From positions 1-48,388 of the forward strand of contig JAGVPM010000127.1 of the NCBI GenBank assembly GCA_020052235.1: a DNA stretch of 48,388 bases, written 5' to 3'. This document shows positions 13,287 to 48,299 of the stretch, piece by piece (the stretch's first letter is position 1; the number at the start of each line of letters is the position of its first letter). The position numbers and the translations under genes were made by a program. A model generated the notes under the pieces. That model made no database searches and had not been told where the DNA came from. It saw only the letters and a program-made list of their open reading frames with translations. The stretch comes from Candidatus Goldiibacteriota bacterium. Lineage in GTDB: Bacteria > Oederibacteriota > JAAXVQ01.

Positions 13287-14471
13287 ATGTTTAGAACGTC
13301 GATCATTGCTTTGACGCTGGGCATGATGCTGATAAGTGCTTGTGCCACGACGCATGCCAAGCGCAAAGGTGCGTTTTATCCCGCGCGTATTCCGGCTTCT
13401 TCGGAAACTCAGCGTTTGGCCAATGTCCGGGTGGCGTTGTTCCAATCCATCCCGCGCCTGCGGGTTGCGTCGAAAGAACCGGTGAAAATTTATGACATGA
13501 ACACCCGGTCGATGATGGCGGATTCGGTTTTAAAAGAAGAGAGCCAATTGACTCCCCGGAATCAGCATTTTATGCTGAACGGGCAAACCCTGCTGGCGCA
13601 AAAAATTCGTTTGGTTCCGGCGGAAAAAGATTTTATTAAATGCAATGGGCAGCGTTTTCGGGGGCAAATTGAGGTGAGTTGCAATGCCCGAGGGGGATTG
13701 CTGGTAGTGAATTTTGTGCCGCTTGAAGAATACGTAAAAGGCGTGGTGCCCAATGAAGTCCAGGGCAATTGGCCCTTGGAAGCATTGAAAGCGCAAGCCG
13801 TGGCCGCGCGCACATTCACCTTGTCGCGCATGGGTTCATCCGCGAATGCGGAATTCGACGTTGAGGCCAATACCAACAGCCAGGTTTACCGGGGAATGGA
13901 TTCGGAACGGGAGGCCACCAACCAGGCCGTCGAGGGTACGGCCCATTTGGCCGCAACCTATCAGGGCCGGTTTATTTCAGCTTTTTACCATTCCAATTGC
14001 GGGGGGCATACGGCGGACGTAAGGAACGTTTGGGGCAATGATATTGTTTACCTTAAGGGCGTTGCTTGCGGTTTTTGCGATGACAGTCCGCATTACAACT
14101 GGTCTTTAACACTTTCCTTAAAGGAGATCACCAATTTACTTTCGCAGCGCAATATTGAATTCATCCGCAGCATTGAAGTCATGGGCCGCTTGCCCGACAA
14201 CCGGGTTTTAAGCCTGGAGATTGTGCACGGAGGCGGCAAAGAGATTATGAAAGCCCCAGCGTTCCGGATGCTGCTCGGTCCCGAACGGTTGAAAAGCACG
14301 AATTTTGAAATTACACCCAATGCCAAGTCGCTGGTATTCAAAGGCAAAGGCTGGGGGCACGGCGTGGGTTTATGCCAGGAAGGCGCTTATGGCATGGCGC
14401 GCGCCGGATATGGATTCAGTGAGATTTTAGAATATTATTATCCTGGGATTGAAATTAAGTTTTTGGAATGA
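13287..14471 (+). CDS. SpoIID/LytB-type peptidoglycan lytic transglycosylase, lipoprotein
   Basis: A 394-residue protein from the ATG at 13287, chosen because AAAGGA lies 8 bases upstream and a lipoprotein signal follows (hydrophobic segment then LISAC, lipidation at about Cys20). The longer frame from 13176 overlaps the helicase gene and adds an unlikely N-terminus. The SpoIID signature is clear: VPLEEYVKGVVPNEV, LKAQAVAARTF, SAFYHSNCGGHTADV, WGNDIVYLKGV and the C-terminal GKGWGHGVGLCQEGAYGMA. SpoIID cleaves glycan strands without stem peptides. In a double-membraned bacterium the role is likely wall remodelling or division, not sporulation. The stop overlaps queA (ATGA). Confidence 0.93.
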   Translation: MFRTSIIALTLGMMLISACATTHAKRKGAFYPARIPASSETQRLANVRVALFQSIPRLRVASKEPVKIYDMNTRSMMADSVLKEESQLTPRNQHFMLNGQTLLAQKIRLVPAEKDFIKCNGQRFRGQIEVSCNARGGLLVVNFVPLEEYVKGVVPNEVQGNWPLEALKAQAVAARTFTLSRMGSSANAEFDVEANTNSQVYRGMDSEREATNQAVEGTAHLAATYQGRFISAFYHSNCGGHTADVRNVWGNDIVYLKGVACGFCDDSPHYNWSLTLSLKEITNLLSQRNIEFIRSIEVMGRLPDNRVLSLEIVHGGGKEIMKAPAFRMLLGPERLKSTNFEITPNAKSLVFKGKGWGHGVGLCQEGAYGMARAGYGFSEILEYYYPGIEIKFLE

Positions 14472-15514
14472 GCGCGCCTATGTTGGCCAAAGATTTTTCC
14501 TTTCAGTTGCCGCCTGAATTAATCGCGCAAATTCCGCGGCGACGGGGATTTTCCCGCTTGTTGGTCGTGCCTCAAGAAAAACAGCAGCCCCTGGTCCATA
14601 CCATGATCCGTTCCTTGCCCGGACAGTTGGAGCCCGGGGATTGCCTGGTGGTGAACAATTCCAAAGTCATTCCCGCCCGCTTGCGGGCCATCAAGCAGCC
14701 CACCGGTGCGCGCATGGAAATATTGCTTCATCGCGAACTCTCACCCGGGACGTGGGAAGCGTTGGTGCGTCCTTACCGGCGGGTAAAATCCGGCATGGTA
14801 TTGCGGGTGGGAAGCGGCGATATCCGCGTGGCCGGGCTTTGCGGCGAAGGCCGGATTGTGGTGGATTTCGGATCGCGCCGGATCGCCCAGCGGATTATGC
14901 GCCAGCATGGCGAACCGCCCTTGCCGCCCTATATCCGCCGGAGCGGCCGGACCGATTGGCAAGCCGACCGCCGGCGGTACCAAACGCTATTTGCCCATCC
15001 GCCGGGATCGGTTGCGGCGCCTACGGCAGGGCTGCATTTTTCAGCAGGGCTTTTAAAGCAGTTGCAGGCACGCGGAGTGAACATAGTAACCATCACTCTC
15101 CATGTCGGTTGGGGCACGTTTTCACCGCTCCCCGAAGGGGATCTGACCGGCCGCTCCCTGCATCCGGAGCGGTATTTTATTCCCAAGGAAACTGTGGCTG
15201 CGATTGCCCGCTGCCATGCAGAGCAAAAACGCGTCATCGCATGCGGCACTACCGTGACACGCGCTTTGGAAGCGGCGGCACTGAGTCCGGGGAACCTGCA
15301 TGCCGGAGAGGGCGAAACCGGGATTTTCATTCAGCCCGGCTATCGCTGGAAAATCATCGATGGATTGCTGACCAATTTTCACCTGCCGGAATCGTCCTTA
15401 TTTATGCTGGTGTGCGCCCGGGGAGGGAAACAACGCATTTTGCAGGCCTATCAGGAAGCGATCAGCCAAAAATATCATTTTTATAGTTACGGAGATGCGA
15501 TGCTTTTGTTATGA
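14468..15514 (+). CDS. queA: S-adenosylmethionine:tRNA ribosyltransferase-isomerase
   Basis: A 348-residue QueA of full family length. It transfers and isomerises the ribosyl group of SAM onto preQ1-modified tRNA to give epoxyqueuosine. Family blocks seen: FSFQLPPELIAQIP at the N-terminus, DCLVVNNSKVIPARL, PPLPPYIRR, VAAPTAGLHFSAGLL, TLHVGWGTFSP, VIACGTTVTRALE and LLTNFHLPESSLFMLV. It is translationally coupled to the SpoIID gene by ATGA. The other tRNA enzyme of the pathway, tgt, lies about 15 kb downstream instead of next to it as in many bacteria. Confidence 0.97.
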   Translation: MSAPMLAKDFSFQLPPELIAQIPRRRGFSRLLVVPQEKQQPLVHTMIRSLPGQLEPGDCLVVNNSKVIPARLRAIKQPTGARMEILLHRELSPGTWEALVRPYRRVKSGMVLRVGSGDIRVAGLCGEGRIVVDFGSRRIAQRIMRQHGEPPLPPYIRRSGRTDWQADRRRYQTLFAHPPGSVAAPTAGLHFSAGLLKQLQARGVNIVTITLHVGWGTFSPLPEGDLTGRSLHPERYFIPKETVAAIARCHAEQKRVIACGTTVTRALEAAALSPGNLHAGEGETGIFIQPGYRWKIIDGLLTNFHLPESSLFMLVCARGGKQRILQAYQEAISQKYHFYSYGDAMLLL

Positions 15515-17713: not shown

Positions 17714-19003
17714 ATGAAAAAATGGCTGGGCATAATATTGTTGCTGGGTTTGCCCTTGATAAGTTGGGCCGATGTAAATAACTATGGCGCGGAATCCGAT
17801 TTGCGGCAAGGCGCAGGGGCGCGAGCCGGCGGGATGGGCGGGGCTTTCATCGCCTTGGCGGACGATGCTACTGCCGGATATTGGAATCCTGCCGGTTTAT
17901 CCCAAATGGAATTAGAAATTTATCAAGCCGCTTTTCAGCATGGTCTTTTAACCAATAATGCCAGCACGAGTTTTTTAAGTTATGCTTTTTTATGGCCGAA
18001 TGTTGGGGAGTTTTCAATTTCCTGGTTTAATTTTTATATTGGCAATATTGAAACTCGGGATGAAAACGGAAATATTCTTGGGCAAGTTAGCGTTGCCGAA
18101 AACGCATTTTTAATCAGTTATGGACGCAAAGCGTATGAGTTATATGAGGGACTAAGCCTAGGCGCAAGTTTAAAAGTAATTCAGCAAAGCAGTGGTGATT
18201 TTTCAGCGTTGGGGCCCGGGTTGGATTTGGGGATTTTATGGCAACCTATACTTTATTGGGACCATACCGTGGGTTTAACCGCGCAAAATCTTTTCCAAGG
18301 GTTATATTGGAATAGTGGAACATATGATTCATCCGCCGTTTCGGTTAATGTGGGCGCGGCTTTTAAATTTTTTCGCTCTAAAGAAGAACTCTATTTCAAT
18401 CACCTTATTCAAACTATAGACTTAAATATTTTCGAATATTCCCGTTTAGAATTTCGGGCTGGGGTTGAATGTTGGCTTACACGGAATTTTGGCTTGCGCG
18501 CGGGATACAATAGCCAGGAAGTTACAGCCGGGGCGTCGTACCGGCCTGAAAATTTTGAAATTGATTATGCGTTTCATTATGGTTTGACGGAATTGTCCAA
18601 CAATCAGCACCGGATTTCGCTGCTGTTGCGTTTCAAATCCGCCCCACTACCGCCCGCTGAGCGCGCGGGGATGCCGGAACTAAAGGAAACCTTGGAGCCG
18701 GAAGTCGCCGTGTATGAGGATTCCACGCCGCATGATGATGCCAATGCACCTAAAATTGCAGCCAAAGTCTTGGAAATCCAGCGCGTTGGGGGAAAAGCTT
18801 ATAAAGTTATTTTGAACGTGGGCGCCAACCAGGGGATTAAACGGGGTTACCAAGGTTCGCTGGTGGATGCCGGAGGCCAGACTATGGCGGGTATTATCGT
18901 ACAGCAAGTTGATCCGAAATTGTGTTTGGCTGAAATTGCCGGGGTGGCGAAAGATGTTCCGAATGACGCGACGGCGATTATTCGATTGCCGGTAAGAAAA
19001 TAG
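17714..19003 (+). CDS. PorV/UPF0164-family outer-membrane protein with extra C-terminal domain
   Basis: A 429-residue protein with a signal peptide cleaved near WADV (residue 20). The mature start carries the family hallmark: GARAGGMGGAFIALADDATAGYWNPAGL. Barrel strands fill residues 25-305. Residues 325-429 form a separate domain (QRVGGKAYKVILNVGANQGIKRGYQGSLV...) resembling small periplasmic OB-like domains that follow such barrels; its role is unclear. PorV proteins in Bacteroidota shuttle cargo of the type IX secretion system. Here the next gene encodes a large surface protein with a sorting-like C-terminal domain, which fits a cargo-shuttle role. No other secretion-system component is in the window. 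Confidence 0.88.
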   Translation: MKKWLGIILLLGLPLISWADVNNYGAESDLRQGAGARAGGMGGAFIALADDATAGYWNPAGLSQMELEIYQAAFQHGLLTNNASTSFLSYAFLWPNVGEFSISWFNFYIGNIETRDENGNILGQVSVAENAFLISYGRKAYELYEGLSLGASLKVIQQSSGDFSALGPGLDLGILWQPILYWDHTVGLTAQNLFQGLYWNSGTYDSSAVSVNVGAAFKFFRSKEELYFNHLIQTIDLNIFEYSRLEFRAGVECWLTRNFGLRAGYNSQEVTAGASYRPENFEIDYAFHYGLTELSNNQHRISLLLRFKSAPLPPAERAGMPELKETLEPEVAVYEDSTPHDDANAPKIAAKVLEIQRVGGKAYKVILNVGANQGIKRGYQGSLVDAGGQTMAGIIVQQVDPKLCLAEIAGVAKDVPNDATAIIRLPVRK

Positions 19004-19149
19004 AAAGACTGGTTTGTTATTGGATAACCTCAGGCTGTTGTAGTGAATTTATTGAGTAAGGATTTAGATAAAAGCACGGAAGCCAGGATATAAAAACTGT
19101 TCGAGACTGAATCGTCATTTGTATGGAATTTAAGCGGGATGGTAACGTC

Positions 19150-21936
19150 ATGAAATTGATTAAATTCGGGATTGTGATCTGTAGCCTGCTAACATTAAGC
19201 CAATGGAGCTGGGGTGACTGGATTCAGGATGGCGGGAGTATTAGTAATAATACAAACCCCGCATTGTATTACCCGAGCATTGCTTCTAACAACAATATAC
19301 CCTATGTCTCTTGGCAGGAACCTGACGGGGCATACCAAATATATGTAAAACATTTTTCCGGAAATACATGGGTACAAGATGCCGGTAGTTTAAATATTAA
19401 TACAACCTCAAACGGAGGTGGCCCCAAAATTGCGTTTGTCGGAACGACGCCTTATGTTGCTTGGACGGAGTATGCTTCAGTTTGGCGAATTTATGTAAAA
19501 CATTATAATGGCTCAAATTGGTTGAGTGACGGAAGCGGAAGTTTGAATATTAATGATAATTATTACGGTATTGATCCTTCAATTGCAATTCTTGGCAGCG
19601 TCCCTTATGTTACCTGGAGCGAGCGCAATGCGTCGGGAAAATTTCAGATCTATGTAAAACATCTATCCGGAACCACATGGATTCAAGATGGGTTAGAGTT
19701 GAATATCGATACGGCCCAAGAGGCCAGGGCACCCGATATTTCCTGTTCGGCAACGGCCCCCTATGTTGCTTGGTATGAAACCAAAGCTGGAACCAACCAA
19801 ATTAATGTAAAACATTTTAATGGAGCAGCTTGGATTGCGGACGGAGCGAGCCTGAATAATAATGCTCTGAAGAGCGCCCAATATCCAAGCTTGATGATGT
19901 CTGCTAATATTCCATATGTTGCGTTTCAAGAACAAAATTTATCGGATGTGTGGCAAGTTTACGTAAAATGTTTTAATGGGACGTCGTGGATTCAGTTAGG
20001 GAATGCTTTAAACAACCTTACGGCACAAAATGCCCAATATCCAAGGATTGCATTTGCGGGTGCAATTCCCTATGTTACCTGGATTGAGAGCGTGGGGAAC
20101 ACTGTTGATATAGTATATGTAAAGCATTTTGATGCCGGATCGAATCAATGGGTGGCGGACGGTGATTCTTTAAATTTAGATTCCACAAAAAATGCCCAAA
20201 CACCTCGAATTGCAATAAATAATCAAACGCCTTATGTTGTCTGGCAAGAAACAAATGTTTCGGGTGGCGAACAATTCTATGTAAAGCACATTGCGGACTC
20301 AACTCCTTCGGTTTTTTCTTGTTATCCGAAAAACGCAGTAAAAGATAACGTCCTCCCGAATGTACTCATTGAAGGATATAATTTAAATGCCCCCGTGGCA
20401 GTGAAGTTAATCCGTACGGATAATGCGGCGAGTATCGTTAACGGCTTTAACATTGTGAGAAAAAAGGGGACGGTTCTTAGTTGCGGATTTGACCTTACTA
20501 ATGCCGCACCGGGTTTTTATAATGTCCAAGTCGAAAGTGGTACGTTGAAAGGTGTTTTAAAACGTGGTTTTTTAATTCAAGAACGAGGGGTTTTACCTGC
20601 TCAATGGGCGATAACCGATATTGGCAATGTAACGAAATCAGCAGCGGCCGGATCATTGTGCGGTATTTCAGTGGAAGATGGGGATAATGATGGCGTGCAG
20701 GAGCTTTTCTTAGCCAATCGAAATCCGACTTTGTTCCGGGCAAAAAAAATGGCTGGTGGTTGGAGTATATCAGCCGTGGGGCAAGAAACTGTGGGGGAAT
20801 TGTACCTTGATACCTTGATTTGTGATCCTGCCAATAACGGTATGCTTAAAGTCTATGGAACGACATCAAATAGTTATCTTTACCAATACAGCGGAATAAC
20901 ACTGGATAAATCGAATTTTGGAACTTCAGTTAGTCCAGGGTATCGTTTGTGTATTGGCGATGGATTTAATGACGGTTGGTTTAAAATTTTTATGGCTGCG
21001 GGGAATGGCCATATTTATCAATTTCCTCAAAATGGCAACCAGAATAAGGATGATCTTTTGGCGGGCGTAGGCACTATGAATCCAATGAATAGCGTTGCAG
21101 TGGGGGATGGGAATTTAGATGGCGGTTTTGAAGTTTATGGTGCTTCATCGGATCACAGTATTTACCAATTTGTTTTCAATGGAACGGCTTGGGATAAAAC
21201 GGTAGTTGGTGCTGGAGGTGGTGAAATGTACGCTGTTACTTTGGCGGACATTGACAACGATGGAGGCATGGAAGTGTATGGCGCAAATGAAGATGGCGCT
21301 ATTTATCAGTTTAAATGGGGCTTTTCCGCATGGCAAAAGAATCAAGTTGGAACGTGTGGCGGAAAACTATTTGATCTGACCATAAACGACGGAGATAATA
21401 CCGGCGCGGTGGGAATATATGCCGCTTGCGCAGATGGACATGTTTATCAATTTAAACCTTCGGGTACTCAATGGATAAAAATGGATTTAAGCGGAACTTC
21501 GACACCCTTATATAAAATTGCCGCCGGAGATGGCGATAATGATAATTTGGTTGAAATATACGCCATTGGCGATAATGGGCATGTTTTTCAATTTAAAATG
21601 GCGGCGATTTTGAATCCCACCCCAACGCCAATTCCTGATTTCCGTGGTCAGATTATTTCTGCCAATTATGTTTTTTGCGCCCCCAATCCTGCTCGTGGAT
21701 CGTTCGCGAATCTGAATATTTTCACTCAGCAACCTGCGCATATTGATGTGAAAATATTCACTCCCGGCAGCCAATTGGTTTTTTCCTTTACGCGTGATTA
21801 CGCGGATATTGGAAAACATATAGAACGGATTGATCTCCATGACTTGGCCAATGGAGTTTATTTTATCTTAGTAAAAGCAAGAAATGAACAAGGTGCGGAA
21901 GAAAAAGTTACCTACAAAATGATATGGATAAAATGA
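19150..21936 (+). CDS. Giant secreted protein with two seven-bladed beta-propellers and a sorting-like C-terminal domain
   Basis: A 928-residue protein from the ATG at 19150, chosen because a signal peptide follows at once (cleavage near SWG). Residues 20-400 hold exactly seven repeats of about 52 residues built as W-x2-DG-x-SLN ... PxIA ... PYVxWxE ... IYVKHFNG. An IPT/TIG-like domain follows (about 400-490). A second set of seven repeats carries acidic turns such as DGDNDG ... EVYGA ... IYQF (about 495-820), like FG-GAP/VCBS blades that bind calcium. After a Pro/Thr linker (NPTPTPIP) comes a domain starting CAPNPARG and ending GVYFILVKARN, resembling type IX sorting or FlgD-Ig domains. A surface-exposed binding protein is likely; the ligand is unknown. 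Confidence 0.85.
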   Translation: MKLIKFGIVICSLLTLSQWSWGDWIQDGGSISNNTNPALYYPSIASNNNIPYVSWQEPDGAYQIYVKHFSGNTWVQDAGSLNINTTSNGGGPKIAFVGTTPYVAWTEYASVWRIYVKHYNGSNWLSDGSGSLNINDNYYGIDPSIAILGSVPYVTWSERNASGKFQIYVKHLSGTTWIQDGLELNIDTAQEARAPDISCSATAPYVAWYETKAGTNQINVKHFNGAAWIADGASLNNNALKSAQYPSLMMSANIPYVAFQEQNLSDVWQVYVKCFNGTSWIQLGNALNNLTAQNAQYPRIAFAGAIPYVTWIESVGNTVDIVYVKHFDAGSNQWVADGDSLNLDSTKNAQTPRIAINNQTPYVVWQETNVSGGEQFYVKHIADSTPSVFSCYPKNAVKDNVLPNVLIEGYNLNAPVAVKLIRTDNAASIVNGFNIVRKKGTVLSCGFDLTNAAPGFYNVQVESGTLKGVLKRGFLIQERGVLPAQWAITDIGNVTKSAAAGSLCGISVEDGDNDGVQELFLANRNPTLFRAKKMAGGWSISAVGQETVGELYLDTLICDPANNGMLKVYGTTSNSYLYQYSGITLDKSNFGTSVSPGYRLCIGDGFNDGWFKIFMAAGNGHIYQFPQNGNQNKDDLLAGVGTMNPMNSVAVGDGNLDGGFEVYGASSDHSIYQFVFNGTAWDKTVVGAGGGEMYAVTLADIDNDGGMEVYGANEDGAIYQFKWGFSAWQKNQVGTCGGKLFDLTINDGDNTGAVGIYAACADGHVYQFKPSGTQWIKMDLSGTSTPLYKIAAGDGDNDNLVEIYAIGDNGHVFQFKMAAILNPTPTPIPDFRGQIISANYVFCAPNPARGSFANLNIFTQQPAHIDVKIFTPGSQLVFSFTRDYADIGKHIERIDLHDLANGVYFILVKARNEQGAEEKVTYKMIWIK

Positions 21937-21964: not shown

Positions 21965-24553
21965 TTGGGAAACGATAAATTAAGCCCATATAAAGGATAT
22001 ATTAATGCCGGTTTTATAGCGGCCGCAGCGATATTTTTCTTTTTTAAAGGTGATTATTTTACGGGGATTTTGGCCGGTATAATTGCTTGGTTTAGTTGGC
22101 AATCGAGGTTTTATTTTAATCGGGAAAATACCTGGATTGAATGCGTGGTTTTAACTGGAATGGTTGTTGTGTTTTTAGGAGTGGCTGCAAACATTCCAGG
22201 TGCCTTAAAACCAACAATTTTAATTTCGAATTTATCCGTTCCTTTTCTTCTAATAGCAAGCATATTATGGTTTTATCCACGGATTTATTCACAGTTCCGG
22301 CAGGGAAATGTTCAGCAAACCTTGCTGCCCATTAAACAGCGGGAATTGTATAGCGATGGGCTGGTAGTTTTGATATTTGTTTTTCTGATTTTGAAAAGTG
22401 CTTGGGTGGTTGATGATGCGTTTATCACATTTAGAACAATTGATAATTTTATTCATGGACTAGGTTTGGTGTGGAACACGGGTGACCGTGTGCAAGCTTA
22501 TACGCACCCATTGTGGCTTTTTGTTATAGCGGTTGCTTATTTCGTTACTCACGAAGCATATTATACATGCATTGTTTTCGGCTTGGTTTGCACCGTGATA
22601 GCCGTGATTTTAGCTAAACGGATATCGGAAACGGCTGGGACCGGTCATTATTCTTGGCTGCTGGGTATTTCACTTCTGAGTTTTTCTAAAGCTTTTATTG
22701 ATTATTCGACTTCGGGGCTGGAAAATCCGCTAATCTATTTTTTAATGGCAATGTTTTTCTTTTTCTATTTCCGTCCTGTCCAAACGTCTAAAACGATATT
22801 TTTACTTTCCGTAATAACTGCATTGGGAACATTAACGCGGATGGATGCGTTCTTGTTTTTTGCCATACCCCTTTGCCATGCGATGTGGACTGCCTATGCC
22901 GCCGAAGGACGAAAAGTATTTGGACTATTTTTGAAGGGATTTATTCCTTTTTTTGTGTGGGAGGCATTTTCGGTATTTTATTATGGGTTCCCATTTCCGA
23001 ATACCGCATATGCCAAATTAAACACTGGAATATCCACGTTACTTTTAATCCAGCAAGGCATGAAATATTTGGTCCATTCTTTGCGGATTGATCCGGTCAC
23101 CCTAACGATGATAACCGCTGGTTTAATCATTGCATTTATTCAGCGCAAACCGAAACCTCGTATGCTCGCGTTGGGCGTGCTTTGTTATTTGCTTTATGTG
23201 ATCTCAATCGGCGGGGATTCGATGAGCGGTCGTTTTTTAGCGGCGCCTTTTTTCGGTATGGTGTTGGTAATGATGTATTCCATTACATTAACACCTCGTT
23301 CAAGTGCTTGGATGATTATTCCCATGCTGGGTTTAATGCTGATATCGCCCGCCAATCCTTGGCGCGCCGATGCGTTTTATGATCGAACCCGTACGGCGAT
23401 TGATGCGGTGAATGATATTGATGACACTCGTGGCGGGTATTATCAGTCCACGGGTTTGTTTAGGGCCTCGGCAACGCAAAATCATGTCGGTATAGCCCGG
23501 GGGCAAGAGCTTAAAGAACAGGATGTGCCGGTATTCGTATATTCGATTATTGGGTATTTGGGGTATTACGCGGGACCGCGCGTATATATTGTGGATATTT
23601 GGGCTTTGGCCGATCCCCTATTAGCACGGTTGCCATGCGCTGCTTGGGGCTGGCGAATTGGCCATTTCATGCGCGCGCTGCCAACTGGGTATATTGAAAC
23701 GATTCAAAATCATAGGCTGGAATTTAAAGATGAAAATCTTGCGCTGTATTATGAAAAATTAAAAATAATCACCCAAGGTGAATTGTTTGGTTTTGAACGG
23801 CTTAAAACTATTGTGCTTATGAATTTGGGCTTTTACGAAAAATATATTGATCAAAAATTTTATAAAAATAGCGTGCCGGAGCAAGCAGTGCGTAATCTTG
23901 TCCCGGCCGTGGAATTTTTAATTCCGGCAAAAGACCGGTGCCCATATGCCGACTTAGTCAACCAAGGAATGGTTGCTGCGCAACTGGATGATTGGAATCG
24001 AGCTACGGGTTTATGGCAAAACGCCAAACAATTAAATCCGGCTAGAGTGGAAGCAGTTGCCAATTTGGGTGTTTATTATGAGAGAATTGGAAATAGTGAT
24101 GCGGCCTTGGAGGCATATAAGGTTGTTGCGGAAAAAATAGGATTACCGTGGAGCCAATATTGTGAACAATTAAAAGTGAATTTGATTTCGGAAAATAATT
24201 TGCCCACGCCAGTGATTCCAAAGAAAAACAGTGCGCCTCAATCAGAAACGAAAAGAATATTGGCAATGGCGCAAGATAAGAGCGCGTATGCAGAGTTGAA
24301 TAATTTGGGGGTTAAAGCCTTGATGCAACGCCAGGTGGAGGATGCAAGGCGAATTTGGTCTCAGGCAGAAGCACTCGATCCTTCGCGGCCGGAAGCTAAA
24401 GCGAATCTTGGGGTTTGGAATGAGCATGCTGGAAATTTTCCGTTGGCGTTAGAGGAATATAAATTTGCCGCACGGAAACTGGGCGAACCTTGGGATCGAT
24501 ATTATAATCAAGTGAAAGAACGAATTAAACGAAATGGGCCAAACAATCATTGA
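21965..24553 (+). CDS. GT-C fold membrane glycosyltransferase with C-terminal TPR modules
   Basis: An 862-residue protein starting at TTG 21965, 7 bases after GGGAG. About 10-12 membrane segments fill residues 10-480. The first large loop has VDDAFITFRTIDNF...GLVWNTGDRVQAYTHPLW, the acidic signature of polytopic GT-C enzymes related to AftB-like arabinosyltransferases, which use lipid-phosphate sugars. Residues 650-862 hold two copies of an approximately 100-residue TPR module (LGVYYERIGNSDAALEAYK and LGVWNEHAGNFPLALEEYK). It follows the double-propeller gene by 28 bases, so glycosylation of that protein or of a related envelope polymer is plausible. Sugar and acceptor are unknown. Confidence 0.82.
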   Translation: MGNDKLSPYKGYINAGFIAAAAIFFFFKGDYFTGILAGIIAWFSWQSRFYFNRENTWIECVVLTGMVVVFLGVAANIPGALKPTILISNLSVPFLLIASILWFYPRIYSQFRQGNVQQTLLPIKQRELYSDGLVVLIFVFLILKSAWVVDDAFITFRTIDNFIHGLGLVWNTGDRVQAYTHPLWLFVIAVAYFVTHEAYYTCIVFGLVCTVIAVILAKRISETAGTGHYSWLLGISLLSFSKAFIDYSTSGLENPLIYFLMAMFFFFYFRPVQTSKTIFLLSVITALGTLTRMDAFLFFAIPLCHAMWTAYAAEGRKVFGLFLKGFIPFFVWEAFSVFYYGFPFPNTAYAKLNTGISTLLLIQQGMKYLVHSLRIDPVTLTMITAGLIIAFIQRKPKPRMLALGVLCYLLYVISIGGDSMSGRFLAAPFFGMVLVMMYSITLTPRSSAWMIIPMLGLMLISPANPWRADAFYDRTRTAIDAVNDIDDTRGGYYQSTGLFRASATQNHVGIARGQELKEQDVPVFVYSIIGYLGYYAGPRVYIVDIWALADPLLARLPCAAWGWRIGHFMRALPTGYIETIQNHRLEFKDENLALYYEKLKIITQGELFGFERLKTIVLMNLGFYEKYIDQKFYKNSVPEQAVRNLVPAVEFLIPAKDRCPYADLVNQGMVAAQLDDWNRATGLWQNAKQLNPARVEAVANLGVYYERIGNSDAALEAYKVVAEKIGLPWSQYCEQLKVNLISENNLPTPVIPKKNSAPQSETKRILAMAQDKSAYAELNNLGVKALMQRQVEDARRIWSQAEALDPSRPEAKANLGVWNEHAGNFPLALEEYKFAARKLGEPWDRYYNQVKERIKRNGPNNH

Positions 24554-24656: not shown

Positions 24657-24740
24657 GGCAGAGTAAAAGGCTTGCTGAGGGATTTAAGCCAGTGTTATAA
24701 TGATACGTTTTATACCCCATTTTCGAGCGAGGTGGCAGCC

Positions 24741-26579
24741 TTGACAACACCGAGACTTAAAACCGGCGTAACCGGTTTGGATGAATTATTGCTGGGTGGT
24801 TTTTTGGAAGGGGAAAGTATTTTGGTGGAAGGCTTGCCGGGCACGGGGAAAACCACCTTGGGCCTGCATTTTATTCTTCAAGGCATCGCCGATGGGCAGC
24901 CTGGAATTGTAATCACCTTTGAGGAATTTCCCGCGCAATATTACCGCGATGCGCTCAATTTTGGCTGGGATTTAAGGCAGTTGGAAAAAGACGGGCGCTT
25001 GCGCATCATTATGACCTCGCCGGAGGTTCTGCGCGGTGAAATGGAACGGCCGGGAGGCATGTTTGACCGTTTGACGCATGAATTGGGCGCCCGCCGGGTT
25101 CTGGTGGATTCAATCAACTTCCTGCATAAAATTAAAGATGAAGCCGGCACGCAGCGGGAACTGATTAATCATTTCATCAGCGGCTTCAAGCGCCAGGGGA
25201 TCACCAGCTTTTTAATCAAAGACATCGAAGGCGAGCACATCTCCCATTGGGGCATGTATTCCGTGGATTGCTATATCCGCCTGACGTTTGAATTGTTCCG
25301 CGATTACCAGCGGCGCCGGCTGATTGAAGTGTTTAAGGCGCGCGGTCAAAAACACATTTATGGCCAGCATCCGTTTGAAATAACCGAAGAAGGGGTTGAG
25401 ATTTATCCCACCTCGCTGCCGACGCCCATTTCAGTGGCCACCAAAGATACGGGCCAGGAAATACGCCGGATCAACAGCGGGGTTGCGGGACTGGATGAAA
25501 TGCTGGGTGGCGGTTTTTTCAGCGGGCAAACCATCCTGGTGGCGGGAACCTCCGGAACCGGAAAAACCAATCTGGCGCTGCACTTTTTGGCCCGCGGGCT
25601 GGAAAACGGCGAAACGTGCCTGTATTTTTCCCTGGAGGAGCAAGGCGGGAATTTATTGCGCCATGCCCGTTCCTTAGGTCTGGATTTATCCGGGTCGGTT
25701 CAGGATGAAAGATTGGTGGTGTTGAATGTTCCCGGAGCGGGCATCAGCGAAGGTGAATTTTTACACCTGTTGCGGCGTTACATCAATGAAGTGCGCCCGC
25801 AGCGTTTGGTGATTGATCCCATTTCATTTTTGAACAATATCGCAGCTTCGCCGGGAACGGCGCATATTACCTTCCAGACCATGGTCCGGATATTGCGCAA
25901 CGCGGGAGTAACGACGCTATGCACTTCCGAAATTCCTGAAATGGTGTGGGAATTCAAACTGAGCGATTCCAATTTGTCCTACTTGGTGGATACGGTCATT
26001 TTATTGCGTTTGGTGGAAATTGAAACCACCATCCGCAAAGCCATCATGATTATCAAGCAACGCGGTTCCAGCCATGACCGCAATTTGCGTGAATTGCTGA
26101 TTGACAACCAAGGCGTCCGCATCGGCGAACCGTTTTTAAGCCATGAGGGGATTTTGACCGGCATGACCCGCCGCCGTTCTGGCAGGGAGCCGAATAAAAT
26201 TTTAATCGTCGATGACGATCCCCGCATGGTGGAACTGATTAAAGCCAGTTTTCGGGATGAACGTTTTGTATTGGTGGATTGCGGCGACGGTGAATCCGCT
26301 CTGCGCATGAGTGTGATGGAAGAACCGGATTTAATCATTTTGGATTTGATGCTGCCGAAGTTAAACGGGTTTGAAGTTTGCCAAAAATTGAAAGCGGAAC
26401 CGGGGACCGCCGATATTCCCGTCATTATGCTTTCCGCAAAAGGAGAAACGGAATCCAAAGTCCAAAGCATGAATTTAGGGGCGGATGACTATATGACCAA
26501 ACCGTTTTCTCCCTTGGAACTGGTGGCGCGCGTAAAAATGATTCTCAGGCGGTCGTACGGCAAGAGGAAACATGAATGA
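24741..26579 (+). CDS. Tandem KaiC-domain ATPase fused to a response-regulator receiver
   Basis: A 612-residue protein from TTG 24741, favoured because GAGGTGG lies 5 bases upstream and KaiC homology starts directly; a TTG at 24672 would add 23 residues. KaiC domain 1 (about 1-240) has GLPGTGKTT (31-39), the catalytic pair Glu61-Glu62 and VLVDS. Domain 2 (about 245-480) has GTSGTGKTN (269-277), Glu299-Glu300 and LVIDP. At the KaiC phosphosite the sequence is NLSYLVDT: Ser413 is kept, but the neighbouring Thr is Tyr414. A receiver follows (about 490-612) with IVDDD, phospho-acceptor Asp535 and the final Lys of MTKPF. No kaiA or kaiB is nearby. The next two genes are histidine kinases, likely phosphodonors for the receiver. 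Confidence 0.93.
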   Translation: MTTPRLKTGVTGLDELLLGGFLEGESILVEGLPGTGKTTLGLHFILQGIADGQPGIVITFEEFPAQYYRDALNFGWDLRQLEKDGRLRIIMTSPEVLRGEMERPGGMFDRLTHELGARRVLVDSINFLHKIKDEAGTQRELINHFISGFKRQGITSFLIKDIEGEHISHWGMYSVDCYIRLTFELFRDYQRRRLIEVFKARGQKHIYGQHPFEITEEGVEIYPTSLPTPISVATKDTGQEIRRINSGVAGLDEMLGGGFFSGQTILVAGTSGTGKTNLALHFLARGLENGETCLYFSLEEQGGNLLRHARSLGLDLSGSVQDERLVVLNVPGAGISEGEFLHLLRRYINEVRPQRLVIDPISFLNNIAASPGTAHITFQTMVRILRNAGVTTLCTSEIPEMVWEFKLSDSNLSYLVDTVILLRLVEIETTIRKAIMIIKQRGSSHDRNLRELLIDNQGVRIGEPFLSHEGILTGMTRRRSGREPNKILIVDDDPRMVELIKASFRDERFVLVDCGDGESALRMSVMEEPDLIILDLMLPKLNGFEVCQKLKAEPGTADIPVIMLSAKGETESKVQSMNLGADDYMTKPFSPLELVARVKMILRRSYGKRKHE

Positions 26580-30808: not shown

Positions 30809-31945
<1,137 letters not shown>

Positions 31946-45366: not shown

Positions 45367-45407
45367 ATCATGAAAACAGCGGCATTTTTTTGGGAAATGA
45401 GCGCACA

Positions 45408-47078
45408 ATGATCGGCATTAGGCAGGAACCAATATGGGCAAGATCAAATTTTGACATAGTGTTAGGATTCTTGACGGCCCTAGCTGCGTTATTTCTGTTA
45501 CGGTTGCAGATTTCGGTTTCGGGATGGAGTTTGTTAGCACTTTCAGCTTTTTTTCTTTGGCACATTACGGAAGTCAAGGAATCGGAAGCTATACTCAATG
45601 ATTTTTCGCCGCGTACCGAACTTGTTTTATTTTTTATAATTTTCGTAGTTGGTATTGTATTGCGTCTTTGGGATCTGCATCAAATACCGCCCGCTTGCTG
45701 GTTTGACGAAGCAGAAAATGGCTTGGAAACGTTGGGCGTATTGTCAGGAAAACATTTAGTCTTTACGTCACAAAATAATGGCAGAGGTGCCTTGCAATTC
45801 TATTGGGCCTCTCCGTTTTTTCTTTTTTTTGGCGCGACTGTGTTTTCTTTGCGTTTGTCCATGGCCACTTTAGGAATTATAACCATCCCCGCTGCCTGGC
45901 AATTATTCCGAAAAATAGGCGGTCCTTTTGTCGGCTTGGCTGCCTCTGCGTTTGTAGCCTTCTCCGTATGGCATATTACCATCAGCCGCACAGGCTTTGA
46001 TGCCGTTATGACCCCTCTGTTTGATGTTCTTATTATCTATTCCATTTTCAAAGCTGTTCACACCAAAAAATACGTGTGGTTTGGATTTTTGGGTTTTTTA
46101 ATCGGTTTGGCAAACTATGGTTATGTCGCTTCACGACTAAGTATATTACTGGCGGGAATTGCCTTCTGGTTGTTTTTGCCGAAGGAGAAAAATGAGAAGA
46201 AGCGAGTTGTTTATGGAATCATTCTTGCCGGAGCGGTACTGCTTATAACTCTGCTCCCTTTGGTTGTTCATTTCGCGCATTTTCCAGATGACTTGGCAAA
46301 AAGGACAAACCAAACCTCGGTACTAAGCACGGTTATCCAGAAAAAGTCGTTAATGCCACTGGCCAAAACGGTAAAATCCACCTTTGAAATGTTTTATGGG
46401 CGTGGTGACCCCAATGCCCGTCACAATTTATCGAAAGCGCCAATGTTGGATATTCTCACCGGGCTTATGTTTTTTGTAGGCTTGATCTCATTTATTAAAA
46501 ACCTCAAGGGTAAAGACCCTTGGTTAATATTTGTGTTGATATGGTTGTCATTACCTTTGATATTTGGCGGCATGATGACGGAACCGGCACCACACGGATT
46601 GAGAACGCTAGCGGCACTCATGCCAATTTGCTTTATTGCTGCCAATGGTCTTAATTTTTCTTTGAACCTTATACCAACAACCAAACGGCTCCGGTTGGTG
46701 TTGGGCGGTGTGTTTTTTTTCTTGGTGGCAATTTTGGCTTCTCACCAATATTTTATTGTTTATCCTGCTAATCCAGAAACACGCGCTGCTTTTAGTCCCA
46801 CGGCTTACCAGGCAGGGAAATATGTTAAAGCATTGCCGCTCAGTGAGTCAGTCGCGGTATCAAAAGATATAGACCTAAGCATAGTGAAATTTATTTCCAA
46901 CCAGCCAGAACGAAAGTTGAATGTTTTTGATCCGAACATGGCAATTTTATACACCACGACATATATACTTGCGAATCAACCTGAAGCAACGGACATCATT
47001 CGAAACAATAAGCACCATTGCGAAATAATAACTATTGAGCATGAACAATTCATTGTCTGCAAGCCAATGACACACTAA
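45408..47078 (+). CDS. GT-C fold polytopic glycosyltransferase (PMT/ArnT-like)
   Basis: A 556-residue membrane protein from the ATG at 45408; a TTG at 45390 would add six residues. About 11-12 hydrophobic segments cover residues 15-455. The first periplasmic loop carries WFDEAENGLETLGVLSGKH, the acidic pair expected for lipid-phosphate-sugar-using mannosyltransferase-like GT-C enzymes. A C-terminal soluble region (about 455-556) follows. It has no TPR extension, unlike the GT-C at 21965. Forty-two bases later comes another seven-bladed propeller gene, repeating the pairing seen at 19150-24553. Donor and acceptor are unknown. Confidence 0.83.
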   Translation: MIGIRQEPIWARSNFDIVLGFLTALAALFLLRLQISVSGWSLLALSAFFLWHITEVKESEAILNDFSPRTELVLFFIIFVVGIVLRLWDLHQIPPACWFDEAENGLETLGVLSGKHLVFTSQNNGRGALQFYWASPFFLFFGATVFSLRLSMATLGIITIPAAWQLFRKIGGPFVGLAASAFVAFSVWHITISRTGFDAVMTPLFDVLIIYSIFKAVHTKKYVWFGFLGFLIGLANYGYVASRLSILLAGIAFWLFLPKEKNEKKRVVYGIILAGAVLLITLLPLVVHFAHFPDDLAKRTNQTSVLSTVIQKKSLMPLAKTVKSTFEMFYGRGDPNARHNLSKAPMLDILTGLMFFVGLISFIKNLKGKDPWLIFVLIWLSLPLIFGGMMTEPAPHGLRTLAALMPICFIAANGLNFSLNLIPTTKRLRLVLGGVFFFLVAILASHQYFIVYPANPETRAAFSPTAYQAGKYVKALPLSESVAVSKDIDLSIVKFISNQPERKLNVFDPNMAILYTTTYILANQPEATDIIRNNKHHCEIITIEHEQFIVCKPMTH

Positions 47079-47120
47079 GTTTGGAGATAAAATGTAAATT
47101 TTTTAGAGAAAGGACGATAG

Positions 47121-48299
47121 ATGAATTTTAAAAATATTATATTATTAATGGTTTGTTGTTTGGCATTATTAGGTTCGCTGGGTGGAACATGTTGGGCAAA
47201 ATGGGTTCAGGATGGCGAAAGTTTAAATGTTGAACCACAAAAAAGAACAATGCTTGCTGGAATAGCTTTGGCTCCAAACGCGCTTTATGTGGCCTTCGTT
47301 GAAGGAAACACGCATTCAGCTTGGGATGAGAATCGCCTTGATCTGAAAATTTATGTCAAGCATTGGGATGGGGAAAAGTGGCTCCAGGATGGTGAAAATG
47401 TTAATGAGACAAGTAAGTCCGGCATATATTTGCCAAGCATAACGGTTATTCAAAACAAGCCGTATGTCGCATGGCATGGAAGCGATTATGTAGGGCATGT
47501 CCGTCACTTAGAAAACGGTAAATGGGCAGATGATGGAAAACCTATCCAACGTGTCGAATTTCCCCGGATTATTAATTTAAACAACACTCCCTATTTAATC
47601 TTAAACCGAGGCAGTTTGATGTCCACAAATCGCTTGTTAAATCATGAGTGGGTTGCTGAAGGCAATCCTCTATTAACTCAACAGATTTTTTGTTATCCAA
47701 CTTGGACTTTTTCTTTTAAAGGTGATTTATACGGTACCTGGGTTGAGCGTTCGCTCCAAAAAAAATATCAAGTTTACGTCAAGCATATTCAAAAAGGTGT
47801 TTGGGGCTATAATGCAGGCCCGGTATTTGAAAGCGCCGTGCTTCCCGCTGCGAATCCTAATTTGATTGTGGTGAACGAAACTCCCTATGTGGCTGCGGAT
47901 GACGGGAAGGAAATTTATGTCAAACATTTTGAAACCGATAAGTGGGTGCAGGATGGCCAGGCTATGGATGGCGGTGGTCCTGTACTGTTTTATGTTGATG
48001 GCATGTTGCATGTGACCTGGACGGCAGATAAAATATATTTTGCTCATTTTACTGGAAAAGAATGGAGGTCGGACGGGCTGACCCTTGAAGGGTATTATCC
48101 GGCTGTGGGTTATATGAACGGAATACTTTATGTTATCTATCAACGCGATGACAAAGCGGGAGTACCGCATATATATGTTAGCCATTGGGAGATGGTACCA
48201 ATGCCTTTGCCCACCCCGGAGCCAGCAGGAACACCGGTCATTATTCCTGATGACCAACGTAATTCGGGTAGCATTACAAATCCGGTTAGACTAGTGTAG
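47121..48299 (+). CDS. Secreted seven-bladed beta-propeller protein, C-terminal domain truncated
   Basis: A 392-residue protein with a signal peptide (residues 1-27, cleavage near CWA) and AAAGGA about 7 bases upstream of the ATG. Seven repeats follow, each starting W-x2-DG or a variant (WVQDGE, WLQDGE, WADDGK, WVAEGN, WGYNAG, WVQDGQ, WRSDGL) and most ending in IYVKH or a related strand. They match the first propeller of the 928-residue protein. A Pro/Thr linker (PLPTPEP) comes next, and the chain stops at ITNPVRLV. The NPVR string aligns with the NPAR that opens the sorting-like domain of the larger protein, so that domain appears lost here. A dispersed repeat begins about 25 bases after the stop. 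Confidence 0.85.
   Translation: MNFKNIILLMVCCLALLGSLGGTCWAKWVQDGESLNVEPQKRTMLAGIALAPNALYVAFVEGNTHSAWDENRLDLKIYVKHWDGEKWLQDGENVNETSKSGIYLPSITVIQNKPYVAWHGSDYVGHVRHLENGKWADDGKPIQRVEFPRIINLNNTPYLILNRGSLMSTNRLLNHEWVAEGNPLLTQQIFCYPTWTFSFKGDLYGTWVERSLQKKYQVYVKHIQKGVWGYNAGPVFESAVLPAANPNLIVVNETPYVAADDGKEIYVKHFETDKWVQDGQAMDGGGPVLFYVDGMLHVTWTADKIYFAHFTGKEWRSDGLTLEGYYPAVGYMNGILYVIYQRDDKAGVPHIYVSHWEMVPMPLPTPEPAGTPVIIPDDQRNSGSITNPVRLV

Follow-up and report, generated by a model that had tools for sequence, protein, structure and literature searches.

The two-propeller gene and its neighbors

The window, by which we mean the whole 48,388-nucleotide stretch of DNA that was analysed, carries on its forward strand a gene for a protein with two propellers, placed between a gene for an outer-membrane barrel and a gene for a GT-C-like membrane glycosyltransferase. 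The open reading frame of the two-propeller gene spans 19123..21936 (+) and encodes 937 aa when counted from the first ATG. An alternative ATG at 19150 is preceded by a Shine-Dalgarno-like GCGGGATGG and followed by a signal peptide, and is therefore the likelier start (928 aa). The features of the locus are as follows.

17714..19003, + strand: PorV/PorQ-family outer-membrane barrel gene, 429 aa (NF033709, 114.8 bits, cut-off 90)
19150..21936, + strand: two-propeller gene, 928 aa (other start 19123)
19150..19215, + strand: signal peptide, residues 1-22 (by inspection: hydrophobic N-terminus MKLIKFGIVICSLLTLSQWSWG)
19216..20301, + strand: propeller 1, seven YVKH-type blades, residues 23-384 (leave-one-out profiles, AlphaFold, structure comparison)
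20302..20601, + strand: Ig-like, IPT/TIG-like domain, residues 385-484 (strands in the AlphaFold model)
20605..21615, + strand: propeller 2, seven FG-GAP-like blades, residues 486-822 (profiles, AlphaFold, structure comparison, Pfam)
21616..21648, + strand: PTPTP-type linker (model residues 800-831 below pLDDT 50)
21649..21933, + strand: C-terminal T9SS-type sorting domain, seven-stranded and Ig-like (PF18962, AlphaFold, fold comparison)
21965..24553, + strand: GT-C-like membrane glycosyltransferase with C-terminal TPRs, 29 nt downstream (TPR over the Pfam cut-off; conserved neighborhood)

The mature protein thus runs from seven blades through an Ig-like domain to seven further blades, the PTPTP linker and the Ig-like tail. 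Elsewhere in the window, a protein that joins a KaiC-type double ATPase to a response-regulator receiver is followed by two histidine kinases (24672-26579), and the queuosine genes QueA and Tgt (14468-15514 and 30821-31945), about 15 kb apart, flank the surface-protein cluster.

Two closed propellers built from different repeats

Each blade was scored with an HMM built from the other six blades of its set, with shuffled copies as the control. The first set, seven repeats of about 51 residues starting at residues 24, 74, 124, 177, 228, 280 and 334, scored 59.9-71.1 bits (maximum of 13.0 bits for shuffled copies). The second set, seven repeats of about 47 residues, scored 17.1-52.8 bits (maximum of 12.6 bits for shuffled copies), its first two blades being the weakest (17.1 and 19.5 bits). 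No real blade score was reached by its own shuffles (893-977 of 1000 shuffles scored, depending on the blade). Both repeat sets are contiguous in sequence, with self-similarity peaking at lags of 51 (set 1) and 47 (set 2). Cross-matching the blade profiles of the two sets gave 0.9 bits at best; as the two profiles are blind to each other, the sets belong to two different repeat families.

The AlphaFold model of the whole chain, computed from five aligned sequences (the window protein, L105 as a full-length relative, and three relatives represented by their C-terminal halves), is all-strand, with blade-like groups of four strands. The individual domains mostly lie above pLDDT 70, and the relative placement of the domains is uncertain given a pTM of 0.47 and a mean pLDDT of 77.5. 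Structure comparison by VIA-align matched model residues 4-363 to the propeller of CylK (7roo; Z 36.2, 335 residues, 2.6 A, 11% identity), which is described as seven-bladed (PMC8916777) and is the closest fold of propeller 1. Model residues 463-801 matched the WD40 propeller of Doa1 (Z 32.3), the integrin alphaIIb propeller (9e8b; Z 31.8, 11% identity), which is among the closest folds of propeller 2, and the designed seven-bladed protein 7big (Z 31.4). A sequence search of solved structures with the window protein returned chance matches only (best E 0.27).

The initial annotation had proposed two different seven-bladed propellers, and the leave-one-out profiles, the AlphaFold model and the fold matches to CylK, WD40 and integrin propellers agree with it. 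That the propellers are closed, at seven plus seven blades, is supported by the AlphaFold run and the structure comparison (Z 36.2 and 31-32). Taken together, the blade profiles, AlphaFold and structure comparison lead us to reject a continuous solenoid as well as any blade count but seven.

The FG-GAP character proposed for the second set is supported by Pfam FG-GAP_3 (PF13517), which reached 35.0 bits when propeller 2 was scanned alone (cut-off 26.9) and 20.3 bits when the whole protein was scanned. By inspection the acidic DxDxDG motif is complete in two of the seven blades (DGDNDG and DIDNDG) and degenerate in the other five. Calcium binding by propeller 2 is only partly suggested by its motifs.

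An Ig-like domain between the propellers and a type IX-like tail

The segment between the propellers had been called an IPT/TIG domain. Its Ig-like strands are present in the AlphaFold model, but Pfam IPT/TIG (PF01833) has no match in this segment of the window protein and matches four of five homologous segments at 13.4-17.4 bits, all below the cut-off of 20.9. We therefore describe the domain as Ig-like and, at a sub-threshold level, IPT-like.

For the C-terminal tail, both a type IX and a FlgD-Ig relationship had been offered. The tail matches Pfam Por_Secre_tail (PF18962) at 29.8 bits (gathering cut-off 27), and at 28.1 bits in the genome search. With NCBIfam TIGR04183 it scores 20.9 bits in the whole protein and 22.8 bits alone, under the cut-off of 23 bits, which 7 of the 10 tails scanned reach, the window tail not among these seven. 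An AlphaFold model of the tail alone, aligned with six other tails, has seven strands at pLDDT 90.8, and resembles the C-terminal region of PorU (residues 1055-1157; Z 12.0, 2.0 A) at 24% identity, the highest identity listed. FlgD_ig has no match in the window protein (Pfam, E up to 1). The PF18962 match, the seven-stranded Ig-like model and the PorU match argue for the type IX-like assignment over the FlgD-Ig alternative.

If the tail were a structural FlgD-like Ig domain, the window protein could be periplasmic or otherwise exported, lying beside FadL-type porins and having nothing to do with T9SS. Ig folds are common, the PorU match is tied in Z with unrelated glycosidase Ig-like domains, and several sister tails match FlgD_ig, some paired tails elsewhere doing so better than they match the sorting-tail family. 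The PF18962 score of the window tail and the missing FlgD_ig match speak against this reading, which we consider very unlikely also in view of the genomic evidence given below.

A PorZ-like plan

The initial annotation knew of no standard name for this domain order, yet a close parallel has been described: PorZ of Porphyromonas, a T9SS component in which a CTD follows two seven-bladed propellers (PMC5121618). PorZ of Porphyromonas gingivalis shares with the window protein a signal peptide, two seven-bladed propellers and a terminal seven-stranded CTD (PMC5121618). Unlike PorZ, the window protein combines unrelated propeller repeat types, separates its propellers by an Ig-like domain and has a PTPTP linker. 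The second propeller of PorZ is closed by an N-terminal strand (PMC5121618). The PorZ model NF052228 is absent for the whole window protein (E up to 1) and gives 11.8 bits with the tail (cut-off 260), on which ground we do not accept PorZ membership. The nearest architecture being that of PorZ and the PorZ model having failed, the protein is PorZ-like and not PorZ: a variant near PorZ, in which a PorZ-like plan is built from different propellers. The PorZ structure 5M11 is not among the structure-comparison matches listed, which excludes nothing.

In a Foldseek search with the whole chain, multi-propeller proteins lead, among them BT4663 (top), DDB1 and AIP1, at TM-scores that are low overall (0.25-0.27 by query length for BT4663 and AIP1). 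BT4663-type sensor ectodomains and AIP1 likewise hold two seven-bladed propellers in one chain; unlike the window protein, they are made of other repeat families and are without a T9SS tail. BT4663 is the protein that PorZ is reported to resemble, and the propellers of both have been linked to glycans (PMC5121618).

These parallels raise the question of whether the window protein and its barrel are a working counterpart of PorZ and PorQ, that is, a machinery component whose task is to present other cargo with a surface glycan, and not a cargo with a job of its own. The shared plan and the BT4663 match would fit, the CTD of PorZ is reported to be retained and bound to PorQ, a PorV-family barrel (PMC10202324), and the window barrel fits the PorQ model (67.5 bits) better than the PorV model (41.1 bits). 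However, the PorZ model scores argue against it, and the many paralogues with varied N-terminal modules look like a cargo family and not like one machine part, so that we regard such a role as quite unlikely.

Paralogues and relatives

The genome that holds the window has 38 matches to the two-propeller protein. One paralogue (C169) has the full order of propeller 1, Ig-like domain, propeller 2 and tail at 42-43% identity. Others have propeller 1 only, a different N-terminal part ahead of the Ig-like domain, propeller 2 and tail, or the tail alone; judged by these sequences, the family is a modular one. Of 59 genomes searched, counting that of the window, 40 have a match to the two-propeller protein. 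The full domain order is present in relatives at G006 C206 and G003 C325, both genomes belonging to the order of the window's genome, and is split over two frames at G006 C353 and C198. As a paralogue and relatives share the arrangement, it is not unique to the window protein. A propeller-2 cargo gene split over two frames also occurs on C28 of the window's own genome, and all three splits may stem from either assembly error or decay.

A first scan of public contigs with the window protein found no relative. A second scan, with an alignment of the IPT, propeller 2 and tail part, found four loci, in candidate division FCPU426 bacterium and bacterium RS_6_11. The source genome, that of an uncultured bacterium, belongs to the FCPU426 phylum group, whose 16S cluster has been placed within Goldbacteria (PMC7031533).

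T9SS machinery in the genome

The genome encodes a SprA-like frame of 2139 aa, which reaches the TIGR04189 cut-off of 200 bits only when its pieces are summed. No PorU sortase was recognized in it, the best match being 37.5 bits against a cut-off of 420. This best partial match is a frame on C195 (L095 2274-4064) covering model positions 585-773, which is possibly a diverged sortase or a cargo protein; the remaining PorU-model matches fall in the C-terminal tail part of the model. The GldM/PorM motor part (TIGR03517) has no match in the genome at E up to 1. With PorU and GldM not found, the machine is incomplete by Bacteroidota standards. The missing GldM match would be expected if the window protein had no part in T9SS; the SprA-like gene, and the gene pairing described next, argue against that.

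PorV-family barrels are encoded beside tailed proteins

The window barrel carries a C-terminal extension of about 120 aa (122). It is encoded ahead of the two-propeller gene at a distance of 119-146 nt, the reverse of the usual cargo-then-barrel order. Its nearest relative is the C28 barrel (64%), next to a cargo that also has propeller 2 blades and a related tail. PorV-family extensions vary: there may be none, about 120 residues (the window class), or 200-480 residues (TPR- or OmpA-like by eye). In the window's own genome, 39 PorV-family genes exceed the cut-off (54 places once pieces are merged), and sorting tails give 54 hits at E up to 1, of which 17 are over the cut-off. Every one of the 44 genomes searched (the window's own and phylum relatives) has PorV-family genes, with 6 to at least 43 matches each, counts that are lower bounds in some genomes since the best 38 candidates were scored; none of 14 control genomes has a match over the cut-off.

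We compared the positions of tails and barrels with those expected from uniform placement. In the window's own genome a PorV-family gene starts within 600 nt downstream on the same strand for 20 of the 54 tail hits (0.28 expected). The pairing is likewise above chance in three relatives, where, among the matches listed, a downstream PorV gene accompanies 12 of 72 tails in G004 (0.25 expected; opposite strand, 1), 10 of 54 in G002 (0.26 expected; opposite strand, 0) and 6 of 24 in G012 (0.07 expected; opposite strand, 0). A PorV gene ending just ahead of a tail was found 0, 1 and 0 times in these three genomes, again among the matches listed. Seen from the barrel side in the window's own genome, a tail-bearing frame lies just upstream of 23 of 45 PorV genes (45 of the 54 places examined, with tails judged by eye from the C-termini), several with 4-nt overlaps; 20 of these 23 frames have a PF18962 hit and three have a hit only to the tail part of the PorU model. 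That about half of dozens of barrel genes directly follow a tailed protein suggests one barrel per surface protein. The proteins so paired (20 of the 23 scanned) are dominated by extracellular domain types, including NHL (2), Kelch (1), one subtilase, Ig-like Big_1, carboxypeptidase-regulatory and Rha78A-type domains.

The distance matrices of barrels and tails are correlated over 24 pairs (Mantel r 0.76), as they are without the truncated C132 barrel (r 0.68, n = 23) and without the window's tail class (r 0.53, n = 18), the value being reached in 0 of 20000 permutations in each case. The nearest neighbors of barrel and tail concur in only 6 of the 24 pairs, and co-duplication of the gene pairs alone, without contact, would give the same correlation.

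In Bacteroidota, type A tails are reported to be collected from SprA by one shared PorV, and dedicated shuttles are described only for type B tails, whose cognate PorP/SprF is encoded directly downstream (PMC12618676). The type B cargo of Flavobacterium johnsoniae resembles the pairs found here in having a cognate barrel gene directly downstream (PMC12618676, PMC9143113), and its PorP/SprF barrel is thought to anchor it (PMC12618676, PMC9143113). Unlike in F. johnsoniae, the tails here are type A-like and the barrels belong to the PorV/PorQ family: all of the 10 paired barrels that were scanned fit PorV/PorQ, with 7 exceeding the cut-off, the PorP model has no match in these 10 or in the window barrel, and the type B tail model (TIGR04131) has none in the 10 tails scanned. 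With neither tail nor shuttle model matched, a type B/PorP assignment is ruled out for these tails and barrels.

The window protein could then be an ordinary type A cargo, shuttled by any PorV-family barrel and cleaved by a diverged sortase, with the neighboring barrel there by chance or for merely operonic reasons. Its tail family is type A-like, a single PorV is reported to serve all type A tails in Bacteroidota (PMC12618676), and the C195 frame weakly matches part of the PorU model. On the other side, the adjacency of tails and barrels is far over chance in four genomes, and the barrels diverge along with the tails of their neighbors. We think this explanation rather doubtful, though the strongest of the competing ones.

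Glycosyltransferases beside the cargo genes

The GT-C-like protein downstream of the two-propeller gene matches only a distant arabinofuranosyltransferase model (NF041481, 56 bits, far under the cut-off). A membrane protein assigned to the GT-C type lies directly beside the cargo at 8 of 22 loci of the window's tail class (the window, C169, C30, C56, G006 C353, C198, C6 and G004 C5), and several other loci stop at contig ends. PMT_2 is over the cut-off in five of the seven such neighbors scanned, and also in that of C169 on a longer contig; no model matched the neighbor at G004 C5. Four PMT_2 domains lie within 1.5 kb at 26 loci in the window's own genome (0.44 expected) and five within 2.3 kb at 13 loci in G006 (0.33 expected), enrichments that are suggestive and not strict, as the distances were picked after the loci had been seen.

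A second glycosyltransferase-propeller pair occupies 45390-48299 of the window, where a PMT_2-type membrane protein (45390-47078, PMT_2 38.1 bits) is followed after 42 nt by a propeller-1-type protein that has a signal peptide and no tail (47121-48299). At G006 C221 (L108 3618-5656), a GT-C gene is followed by a propeller-1 frame that stops early, and the next frame is transposase-like by eye.

A model for display at the cell surface

We favor, with a probability of about 0.55, a reading in which the window protein is a T9SS-like surface protein whose uncleaved tail keeps it on its own barrel and whose propellers are binding modules. The protein would be exported by Sec and displayed at the surface as a binding protein. 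It would cross the outer membrane via the SprA-like T9SS translocon, directed by its C-terminal Ig-like tail, which would then be passed to the PorV/PorQ-family barrel encoded just upstream. The tail, then, probably routes the protein to the cell surface, and the adjacent barrel is probably what receives it.

Because no PorU sortase was recognized, the tail is probably kept, with the barrel as its anchor. One barrel per cargo is most simply accounted for by a tail that stays uncleaved and anchored in the barrel of its own cargo. Barrels are reported to play this part for PorZ, which sits on PorQ, and for type B cargo, which sits on PorP/SprF, and one review puts forward that CTDs are shielded from cleavage by cognate PorV-like barrels (PMC10202324). 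The two propellers, spaced by the Ig-like domain, would face outward as glycan or protein binding modules, and the glycan link of the PorZ and BT4663 propellers may be taken as a lead only to the ligand. The adjacent GT-C-like enzyme may glycosylate the two-propeller protein.

More tentatively, and with less confidence than in the surface-protein reading itself, the same arrangement could be extended to the FCPU426 group as a whole. The PorV/PorQ family may there have diversified into dozens of barrels, each dedicated to a single type A-like cargo or tail class and encoded beside that cargo. Such barrels would anchor uncleaved tails permanently, with neither PorU nor a recognizable GldM at work. 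The two-propeller protein would be one such cargo, with a GT-C glycosyltransferase of its own.

The pairing of type A-like tails with PorV-family barrels in four genomes is a more interesting result than the protein itself. The literature covered (titles and abstract openings, mostly outside subscription journals) does not describe PorV barrels dedicated to type A tails within this phylum, and the introduction of one paper has T9SS genes absent outside the FCB group (PMC11285876). The model raises the question of how export is powered and cargo anchored without the known motor and sortase. If true, it would mean a one-barrel-one-cargo surface display of type A tails that arose in parallel with the system formed by PorP and type B tails in Bacteroidota. 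With 6 to at least 43 PorV-family genes per genome, a SprA-like gene (in the genome tested) and tail-barrel pairs, the phylum would offer dozens of matched type A pairs from which the rules of recognition may be read.
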